NCBI GenBank assembly: GCA_033344875.1
Contig: JAWPMO010000001.1
Span: 1,203,595 to 1,267,594, forward strand
Length of the DNA: 64,000 bases
Direction of reading: 5' to 3'
Source: Ilumatobacteraceae bacterium
GTDB taxonomy: Bacteria; Actinomycetota; Acidimicrobiia; Acidimicrobiales; Ilumatobacteraceae
Shown: in pieces, positions 19,720 through 64,000 of the stretch
How the letters are laid out: the number at the start of each line of letters is the position of its first letter
Numbering within the stretch: the stretch's first letter is position 1
Notes under the pieces: model-generated
The model's database searches: none
What the model was told of the DNA's origin: nothing
Seen by the model: only the letters and a program-made list of their open reading frames with translations
Translations under genes and position numbers: made by a program

Positions 19720-19803
19720 ATGGGGAACCATCCGCAACCAGACCGCCCCGGCGATCCCGACGAGGCGATCGGCCTCGCCGGACACGGATCGAAGGTCCGT
19801 TGA
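19720..19803 (+). CDS. Possible 27-residue leader peptide upstream of the redoxin selenoprotein
   Basis: ATG 19720 opens a 27-residue reading frame (MGNHPQPDRPGDPDEA, then I-G-L-A-G-H-G-S-K-V-R) with a GAGGGGA ribosome-binding site 7-8 nt upstream. Its TGA (19801-19803) overlaps the ATG of the selenoprotein gene as TGATG. It could be a translated leader that couples ribosomes into the selenoprotein message, or a small protein in its own right. Length alone makes it uncertain. Confidence 0.45.
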   Translation: MGNHPQPDRPGDPDEAIGLAGHGSKVR

Positions 19804-20891
19804 TGCTGCTCACCGAGCTCACGGTCGACCGCGACACCTTCGAGGCCGGCACGGGATGGCGACTGCAGCCCGAGGGGGCGTGCCGAGGCGACGTCTGCAT
19901 CCCGCTCCGCGACCCGACCGGCGACACGGTCGATGTCGCGACGGTGGCCGACCGGATGGGCCTGCCGCTCGTCCGCGACGACGAACACGGCATGTGGGCG
20001 CTCGGCCCATGGCCCGGAACCGGCCGTGCCCTGGTCGACGCGCAAGCGCCCGATCTCGTCCTCCCACAGCTCGACGGTCGCGACTTCCGGCTCTCGTCAC
20101 TGCGGGGCCAGAAGGTGCTGATCCTGTCGTGGGCACCGTATTGAGGCTGCTCCCGCGACCTGCCCGTGTGGCAGGAACTGCGAGCCGAACTCCATCCGCT
20201 CGGACTCGAGATCGTGACCGTGGGCCTCGACACCGTCGGGGCCGAAGCCTGCCGCCCGTTCATCGAGGCGGCGAATCCGCAGCACCCGTCGCTGATCGAC
20301 CAGCACCATCTGATGGCCGAACTGTTCGGTGTCGTCAACATCCCGAACAGCGTCTGGATCGACGAGGACGGCACGATCGTCCGGCCGGCCGAGGCAGCTC
20401 CACCGCCTCGACGCGAGGAGCGACCGGCACCGGCCGGTGAGATCCCCGGTCGATTCGGCGCGATCATGGGCGAGGCCTCGAAGATCCGGACCGACTCCGC
20501 GGCGTACCACGCTGCCCTTCGAGACTGGGTCGAGCGGGGTGCCGACAGCGAGTACGCGCTGTCCCCCGACGAGGTGGTCGCCCGGTCGCAGCCGCGCGAC
20601 GCCGACTCGGCGCGAGGCACCGCACACTTCGAACTCGCCACCCATTTCGAGACCAACGGGATGCACCAGGCCGCGATTCGCCACTTCCGCGAAGCGCACC
20701 GGCTCGTCCCCGACAACTTCTCCTACAAGCGCCAGGCGTGGTCGATGGAACCCGGGGCCGACGGTGCGCTCGCCCGCTTCTGGCAGGGACCCTCCGACGA
20801 CGATCCGAGCGCCTGGCCGTACGAGGGCGACTGGCTCACCGACGTGCGCGAGTTCGGCGCCGAGAACTACTACCCGGAGTTCCGGCCCTGA
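19803..20891 (+). CDS. Redoxin/TlpA-like selenoprotein with in-frame TGA (selenocysteine) at codon 114
   Basis: Read through the TGA at 20142-20144, the frame gives one 362-residue protein. A ~75-residue N-terminal domain carries a C27-x4-C32 pair. A thioredoxin-fold domain follows (L-P-Q-L-D-G-R-D-F-R-L-S-S-L-R-G, L-I-L-S-W-A-P-Y-U114-G-C116-S-R-D-L-P-V-W-Q, then G-V-V-N-I-P-N-S-V-W-I-D-E-D-G around the cis-Pro). The C-terminal region is helical and TPR-like. U114 occupies the first redox-Cys position, with C116 giving a U-x-C pair. Both halves share one frame, both look like coding sequence, and a SECIS-like hairpin follows the TGA. It overlaps the acyl-CoA ligase start (ATGA). Standard gene calling would split it at 20144 and restart at GTG 20166. 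Confidence 0.82.
20150..20184 (+). promoter_or_regulatory. SECIS-like hairpin for selenocysteine insertion
   Basis: Starting 14 nt after the TGA, CCTGCC (20159-20164) pairs perfectly with GGCAGG (20170-20175) around the 5-nt loop CGTGT. A weaker lower helix (20150-20155 with 20179-20184) flanks an internal loop. A G in the first two loop bases and a loop 20-25 nt past the UGA agree with bacterial SelB-binding hairpins. Confidence 0.6.
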
Positions 20892-22447
20892 TGCCGCTGC
20901 GTACCAGACTCCAGGCGGGCGGTGCACTCGCCAAGATGATGCTCACGCCGTTCGAGCGCCCCGACCGGCTGCCGCGGTCGCTCAGGGCGATGGCGCCGTG
21001 GGGTTCGTCGATGGCCGGTCTCGTGGCCGGAGCGGCCGCTCGATACCCCGACCGGATCGGCATCGTCGATGAGACCTCGTCGACCACCTATCGCGAGCTC
21101 TGGCGCCGATCGCAGGCGATCGCGGCCGAACTCCGGTCGCTCGGCATCGAGCACGGATCCCGCGTCGGGTTGCTGGCCCGCAACCGGCTCGGATTCGTCG
21201 AGGCGATGACGGCGGTCGATGCACTCGGGGCCGATCTGGTGCTGCTCAACACCGGTTTCGCCGGCCCGCAGTTGGCCGACGTGGTCGAGTCGGAGGGCAT
21301 CGAGGCGATCGTCCACGACGACGAGTTCACCGATGCCGTCGCGAGCTGCGGTGCACGGCTCACGATCGACGAGAACGCGCTGGAGGACATGACCCGATCG
21401 GGAACGGTCGCACCGCCCGAGCACGCCGGCCGAGTGATCATCCTGACCTCCGGGACCACCGGCCGCCCCAAAGGAGCAGCCCGAAGCAACGACGAGGGAG
21501 ATCTCGAAGCCGTCGCCGCCGTCATCGAACGGATCCCGCTGCGGCTCGGTGACACGCAGGTCGTGGCGGCGCCGATGTTCCACTCGTGGGGGCTGAGCCA
21601 CCTGCTGCTCGGGCTCGCCCGCAGTGCCACGAACGTCGTCGCCCGCCGCTTCGATCCCGAGCGAACGCTCGCCGCCGTCGCCGCTCATCGGGCCCGCGTG
21701 CTGGTCGTGGTGCCGGTGATGATGTCACGCATCCTCGACCTCGACCCCGCTGTGCTGCGCCGCCACGCCACACCGGATCTCCGCGTCATCGCGTCGAGCG
21801 GCTCGGCCATCGGGAGCGGCCTCGTAACGCGCATCACCGACCACTTCGGTCCGGTGCTCTACAACCTGTACGGCTCGACCGAGGTGGCCGTCGCCACGAT
21901 CGCGACGCCGGACGACCTGAGCATCGATCCCGGCACGGCCGGGCGGGTCGTGCTCGGCAGCCGTGTCGAGATCCTCGATGTCGACGGTGCGCCGCTCCCG
22001 GACGGCGAGGTCGGGCGGATCTTCGTCGGCAGCGCGATGCCGTTCGGTGGCTACACCAACGGCGGCGACAAGGAACGGGTTCGCGGCCTGCTCTCGTCCG
22101 GCGACATGGGCCGCTTCCACGACGGACTGCTGTTCGTCGAAGGCCGCGACGACGACATGATCGTGTCGGGCGGAGAAAACGTCTTCCCGGCCGAGGTCGA
22201 AGAACTCCTCCGAGCCCATCCGGCCATCGCCGATGCGGCCGTCATCGGCGCCGACGACGACGAGTTCGGGCAGGCACTCGCCGCCTTCGTCGTCACGGAA
22301 CCCGACGCCGAGCTCACGGCGAGCCAGGTCCGCGACCATGTCAGGGGCCACCTCGCCCGTCACAAGGTGCCGCGCACCGTCGCGTTCATCGACGAACTGC
22401 CACGCAACGCGACGGGCAAGCTGCTCCGCCGCGAACTCGACGTGTGA
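20891..22447 (+). CDS. AMP-forming acyl-CoA synthetase/ligase (ANL superfamily)
   Basis: A 518-residue adenylate-forming enzyme that would activate a carboxylic acid with ATP and CoA. The P-loop-like motif [13 protein letters not shown]4/A5 motifs (Y-N-L-Y-G-S-T-E), S-G-D-M-G hinge region, [11 protein letters not shown] motif and terminal [10 protein letters not shown] catalytic Lys are all present. The ATG at 20891 overlaps the selenoprotein TGA, so translation is coupled. Fatty acid is the likeliest substrate class, but the sequence does not decide it. Confidence 0.92.
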
Positions 22448-63663: not shown

Positions 63664-64000
63664 GTGTTCCGACGTGCCCTCCCCGTACTCGCAGCGACGC
63701 TGCTCGTGGCGTGTGGCGGCGGGGACCCCGAGGCATCGCCGACCACCGATGCACCGACGCCCGCTGCCGTGACGACCGCTGCGCCAGGTGCGACAGCGAT
63801 CGATCCTGGCGCCGTGCCGGCGGCCTTGCAGTTCACCGCCCCGCTCGTCGGCGGCGGCGAGATCGAGCTCGGCGAACTCGCCGGTCGGCCGGTGCTCCTC
63901 TGGTTCTGGGCACCGTGGTGAAGCACCTGTAATCGAGAAGCTCCCTCGGTCGAGGAAGCAGCACAACGATGGGCCGGTCAGGCCGAGTTCGTCGGCGTCG
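63664..64000 (+). CDS. Thioredoxin-like lipoprotein with in-frame TGA (selenocysteine) at codon 86, partial
   Basis: GTG 63664 starts a lipoprotein: M-F-R-R-A-L-P-V-L-A-A-T-L-L-V-A-C with lipid-anchor C17, then a Pro/Thr/Ala-rich linker. The thioredoxin fold starts at F-T-A-P-L-V-G-G-G-E-I-E-L-G-E-L-A-G-R-P-V-L-L-W-F-W-A-P-W. The next codon is TGA (63919-63921) where the first Cys of W-C-x-x-C belongs. Read through it, U86-S-T-C89-N-R-E-A-P-S-V-E-E-A continues the fold perfectly to the window edge. It should be a TlpA/ResA-like extracytoplasmic redox protein with a U-x-x-C site. Confidence 0.8.
63940..63959 (+). promoter_or_regulatory. SECIS-like hairpin for selenocysteine insertion
   Basis: GCT-C-CCTC pairs with GAGG-A-AGC around the 4-nt loop GGTC. 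There are seven base pairs with one C/A mismatch, starting 18 nt after the TGA. A GGUC apical loop is also found in the E. coli fdhF SECIS, where the G and U contact SelB. Confidence 0.7.

Follow-up and report, generated by a model that had tools for sequence, protein, structure and literature searches.

The 64,000-nucleotide stretch of an Ilumatobacteraceae genome analysed here, referred to as the window, was found to carry a gene that very probably encodes a single 362-residue selenoprotein, a thioredoxin-fold oxidoreductase with a U-x-C centre in which UGA at codon 114 is read as selenocysteine (Sec). This reading is supported by conservation of the TGA with Cys alternatives among homologues, by selA, selB, selC and selD in the genome, by a constrained stem downstream of the codon, by family membership and by the fold, and it bears out the original prediction of a redoxin selenoprotein with Sec at position 114. 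The gene (19803–20891, + strand) comprises 362 codons plus the stop, from ATG 19803 to TGA 20889–20891; an alternative start one codon earlier, TTG at 19800, is possible. The sole internal stop of the frame is the TGA at 20142–20144, within W-A-P-Y-U-G-C-S-R-D-L-P, and the translation agrees with the single interrupted frame that had been proposed. The stop/start overlap with the next gene is also as predicted, since the terminal TGA has one base in common with the following ATG (20891–20893). Under the standard code the same region yields two ORFs, 19800–20144 (114 aa) and 20166–20891 (241 aa), as would be expected of a true stop, be it in a pseudogene, between two separate genes or through a sequencing error. 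The downstream ORF, however, opens only beyond the active site, at residue 122, and for this and the further reasons given below a true stop is given practically no credence.

Genome contigs were scanned for homologues with patterns that omitted the TGA region, and 57 pattern matches led to 36 relatives from bins that, by their record titles, belong to Acidobacteriota, Pseudomonadota and Acidimicrobiia/Acidimicrobiales. TGA was present at the aligned codon in all 35 homologues that cover the site (L044, which does not cover it, was excluded from the codon count), and the matched stretches included no second stop. This conservation across Acidobacteriota, Pseudomonadota and Actinomycetota groups argues against a true stop and excludes a sequencing error. 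A search of 395 genomes of the class gave 41 matches above the cut-off of the family model NF041054, described below, in 39 genomes, 39 of the matches with one TGA and two without. Among the 39 TGA-bearing matches, the position of the TGA was established in 28, the window's own included. Besides the window's locus, 29 over-cut-off loci of the class were read, and codon 114 was TGA in 27 and TGC in the other two (L073 and L075), which are the Cys homologues that the original prediction had proposed to look for. One scan homologue (L039) encodes a protein identical to that of L071, from a genome of the same class. The two halves might have occurred as independent genes in homologues; instead, the frame continues past the site in 64 site-covering homologous loci, through one TGA or one TGC, the exceptions further downstream being a frame shift near the C-terminus of L037 and the end of the contig in L040. 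In a maximum likelihood tree of 61 rows, from which L037, L040, L019 and L020 were left out, the two TGC rows group together in a single clade (100/100) whose sister is the pair of TGA rows of the same genus, and TGA rows lie on all sides of it. As the TGC clade is nested among TGA rows, replacement of Sec by Cys is the simplest direction of change.

If general suppression or a changed code made UGA stand for Trp, Cys or Arg, the frame would be equally open, but the gene's own terminator is TGA, Cys is the residue in both non-TGA homologues, and tRNA-Sec, selA, selB and selD all occur in the genome, so that such a reading is judged extremely improbable. All four components, sought as had been recommended, scored above their family cut-offs in the window's own genome: tRNA-Sec (selC) at 66.6 bits (cut-off 47), selB at 275.9 bits (242.25), selA at 396.1 bits (267.9) and selD at 367.2 bits (125). 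Their presence also speaks against a true stop, as does the fact that the TGC homologues lie in genomes where no such machinery was detected. The SelD of this genome (L060, C1:4687734-4688651, - strand) itself carries an in-frame TGA, in GAGUGCKL, and is by sequence a selenoprotein.

Across the 395 genomes of the class, tRNA-Sec was matched in 394 at E <= 0.001 and exceeded the cut-off in 279, while 14 of 14 control genomes matched at E <= 0.001 and five exceeded the cut-off. Since tRNA-Sec alone discriminates poorly, selA was added as a presence test; among the same controls it was matched in four of 14 and exceeded the cut-off in one. The two markers were compared in 29 hand-picked, non-random genomes, namely 12 with a TGA-bearing family match (10 that had appeared short of tRNA-Sec in the survey of 395, plus the two sibling genomes of the TGC pair) and 17 whose listed match spans the site and contains no TGA, the codon itself having been read only in G111 and G203; three further genomes with matches lacking TGA (G031, G236 and G212) were excluded as the site was not covered. 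In this sample selA occurred in 10 of the 12 TGA-bearing genomes, the two misses being 75% and 70% complete, versus one of the 17 without TGA. When only matches over the NF041054 cut-off were counted, the figures were 5/5 versus 0/2, and below the cut-off they were 5/7 versus 1/15. Against this simple picture, tRNA-Sec was not above the cut-off in nine of the 12 TGA-bearing genomes, and four of the 17 without TGA have it at 47.5–49.8 bits. Three nearly complete genomes (G020, G238 and G032) possess a TGA-bearing member and selA, yet tRNA-Sec does not exceed the Rfam cut-off; their tRNA-Sec genes are perhaps divergent and missed by the model. In one genome (G162; contamination estimate 5%), selA was matched strongly, at 602.9 bits, though the below-cut-off family match of that genome is without TGA. 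Within the genus that holds both forms, the TGA genomes G084 and G170 have selA and tRNA-Sec (70 and 67.9 bits), whereas no selA match and no tRNA-Sec above the cut-off was found in the TGC genomes G111 and G203, an absence that is not final because these assemblies are 88% and 74% complete.

A SECIS-like stem-loop, CCUGCC-CGUGU-GGCAGG (20159–20175, + strand), with a 6-bp stem and a 5-nt loop, begins 14 nt past the UGA. Folding energy downstream of the codon is unremarkable, with a mean z of -0.35 relative to synonymous recoding and 41 of 63 rows below zero (z of -0.78 for the window's own 60 nt), and no Rfam family matched near the TGA. As folding energy is weak proof of a SECIS element, a synonymous-codon test of the stem was used instead. 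All six pairs, G-U allowed, are formed in 44 of 46 distinct TGA sequences versus 15.7 expected from synonymous recoding with the same gene's codons, an expectation that serves as a yardstick and not as a probability because the test was designed after the stem had been seen and the rows are related. With Watson-Crick pairs only, the corresponding values are 35 of 46 and 9.9 expected, and G is the second loop position in 46 of 46. The codons of the stem-loop are skewed in the same comparison: Pro is CCC or CCA in 44/44 cases (22.2 expected), Val is GTG in 27/28 (11.1 expected) and Gly is GGG in 16/18 (3.4 expected). Changes on both sides of a pair were seen in only three sequences (L013, L042 and L089).

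In the Cys forms the stem is eroded: L073 and L075 retain five and four of the six pairs, with the loop GCTCT and the Pro codon CCG, while their Sec siblings L074 and L076 keep six pairs and CCC. The element is a stem-loop downstream of the UGA with G in the loop, and it agrees with the position and consensus rules of bacterial SECIS elements; the energy tests alone are weak. A conserved G in the apical loop is mentioned in the available part of PMC1794560. SelB and tRNA-Sec would then decode UGA 114 as Sec under the direction of this stem-loop. Recoding is well supported, and insertion of Sec in the cell is what we infer from it.

The read-through protein matched the NCBIfam equivalog model NF041054 (WAxxUGC_long, ResA-like WAxxUGC motif-containing protein) with 533 bits against a cut-off of 300, residues 1–361 aligning with profile positions 1–353 of 354, i.e. 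over the full length. The WAxxUGC motif is present as W110-A-P-Y-U114-G-C116, and a profile search of the window's own genome found one member above the cut-off. The best Pfam match is AhpC-TSA (residues 79–193; 20037–20381, + strand) with 51.3 bits (cut-off 26), followed by Redoxin with 41 bits, so that both the pfam00578 domain and the UGC motif, by which the UGC-containing Prx-like family is defined in PMC2398784, occur in this protein. The ResA model NF002854 gave 59.3 bits, under its cut-off of 170, and the CxxC active site of ResA is likewise absent, U-G-C taking its place. In an alignment of the window protein with those of 44 of 65 loci, every one of the 45 rows falls within E <= 1e-20 for NF041054 and within E <= 0.01 for AhpC-TSA. 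Relative to other NF041054 members only motif variants differ, many members elsewhere in the class having S-W, S-Y or T-Y and C-R where this protein has W-A-P-Y-U-G-C-S; L079 has U-H-C and not U-G-C. Many genomes of the class also contain matches below the NF041054 cut-off (about 130–264 bits, profile positions about 8–205 or 8–322), mostly with one in-frame TGA. These distant matches possibly constitute a sister UGC family, of which a profile search of the window's own genome revealed no representative.

Four positions, namely C27, C32, position 114 and C116, do not vary in any of the 45 aligned sequences. The first two (codons 19881–19883 and 19896–19898, + strand) form the C27-x4-C32 pair described in the original prediction, at the positions given there, in an N-terminal region of about residues 1–78 (19803–20036, + strand; pLDDT of the block 84–96). 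The AlphaFold2 model computed from this alignment has a mean pLDDT of 93.0 and a pTM of 0.90. ResA 2f9s headed the Foldseek list (E 1.4e-10). In the VIA-align comparison, which covers residues 73–250, DsbE-like 3gl3 (Z 14.1) and ResA 2f9s (Z 13.2) came first, with peroxiredoxins next at Z 11–12. HMMER alignments with 3kcm, 4nmu and 1jfu set U114 on the first Cys of CxxC and C116 (codon 20148–20150, + strand) on the second, with one residue missing. Ser117 was considered as the replacement of the second CxxC Cys and was rejected, as C116 takes that place in these three alignments; with 4txo, a chain that carries Ser as a mutation of the second Cys, Ser117 was aligned with that Ser. The C-terminal region (about residues 216–362; 20448–20888, + strand) had been described as TPR-like. 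It is mostly helical in the model, and at E <= 0.01 TPR_2 is found in 39 of the 45 members, but the TPR_2 score of the window protein, at residues 274–305, is 18.2 bits and does not reach the gathering score of 27, so that the resemblance stands in weakened form. Designed TPR proteins top the profile search only by summing many weak repeats of 7–12 bits each.

The protein is predicted to be a soluble, probably cytoplasmic oxidoreductase of the ResA/TlpA/AhpC-TSA superfamily; no export signal was apparent by eye. Sec114 would act as the nucleophile attacking a disulfide or a peroxide, Cys116 as the resolving residue closing a selenenylsulfide with it, and the U-x-C centre would be restored by the C27/C32 pair or by a cellular thiol. 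From invariance and fold we infer this chemistry; the activity would be thiol-disulfide (or peroxide) reduction, and C27/C32 is a possible second dithiol for re-reduction of the centre. It is conceivable, although rather unlikely, that the molecule is a self-contained relay in which the N-terminal C27-x4-C32 pair feeds the Sec-x-Cys centre and the helical C-terminal region serves as a docking platform. If so, it would be a three-part selenoenzyme.

The same recoding could serve an enzyme that is mainly a peroxidase of the Prx-like type and not a thiol-disulfide reductase. AhpC-TSA is the best Pfam match, Sec favours peroxide reduction, and because peroxiredoxins match at Z 11–12 the fold alone leaves the activity unsettled; the UGC class is also termed Prx-like in the available text of the 2008 (PMC2398784) and 2022 (PMC9312934) papers. 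However, the nearest solved thioredoxin-fold structures by sequence are of the ResA, TlpA and DsbE types, which also top the fold lists, the NCBIfam name is ResA-like, and the 2026 review (PMC13188914), in the portion available, places the UGC class in the TlpA disulfide reductase family. A predominantly peroxidatic function thus appears a minority prospect, and thiol-disulfide reduction is the preferred activity for the selenoprotein.

Neighbouring genes were of no help in naming a substrate, no conserved neighbour of that kind being found. The acyl-CoA synthetase gene whose start overlaps the stop codon was matched in only two of 65 loci, L013 (1.6 kb away) and L081 (partial), and lies on the opposite strand in each, and the upstream hydrolase had none in the 65 loci, the flanks of L062–L090 spanning only about 1.5 kb. 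Long flanks were available for 22 loci; there, the largest neighbour clusters (the 12 listed) all fell within 12 Acidobacteriota loci, many clusters being overlapping frames and not genes. Operon logic as a clue to function was dropped.

A second selenoprotein candidate was noted at the edge of the window, at 63919–63921 (+ strand); it runs on past the window's end (to about 1890 in L049). Its N-terminus (VFRRALPVLAATLLVACGGGD...) is lipoprotein-like, and its ResA-like domain bears an in-frame TGA in W-A-P-W-U-S-T-C-N-R-E-A-P, of the U-x-x-C type; its best NCBIfam match is ResA NF002854 with 68.1 bits, under the cut-off of 170.

The U-x-C spacing had been noted as unlike the common U-x-x-C, and the architecture had been put forward as unusual for its extra N-terminal domain and TPR-like C-terminus. 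The spacing does differ, but redoxin selenoproteins with the UGC motif are already covered by the curated model NF041054 and by three papers in the parts available: PMC2398784 (2008) lists 'Prx-like (UGC-containing)' with pfam00578 and the motif UGC, with entries of 46, taken here as the count of Sec sequences, and 855 Cys homologues from ocean samples; PMC9312934 (2022) lists 'UGC-containing Prx-like protein'; and PMC13188914 (2026) lists 'UGC-containing TlpA disulfide reductase family protein'. Among the papers available, searches for 'WAxxUGC' and for Ilumatobacter with selenoprotein gave no match, and no biochemical study of the UGC family was met in searches not aimed at that question. 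With UGC-motif redoxin selenoproteins in print since 2008, the window gene is thus an added member of a catalogued selenoprotein family, which makes the discovery a modest one. It is nonetheless a clear instance of Sec recoding of the sort that naive annotation would overlook. Within one genus, Sec and Cys forms follow the presence and absence of detected Sec machinery, and the stem is eroded in the Cys forms, which together amount to a natural experiment. With four invariant redox residues, the function of UGC-type redoxins can be put to the test.

As described in the available portions of PMC2398784, PMC9312934 and PMC13188914, the published UGC class has a pfam00578 or cd02966 domain, the UGC motif and one Sec, as here, and identity of subfamily is suggested by motif and domain. 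With Bacillus ResA (2f9s, 1st9) and TlpA (1jfu) the window protein has the thioredoxin fold in common. ResA and TlpA are exported and carry Cys-x-x-Cys, whereas the window protein has Sec-x-Cys, shorter by one residue, and extra N- and C-terminal regions.
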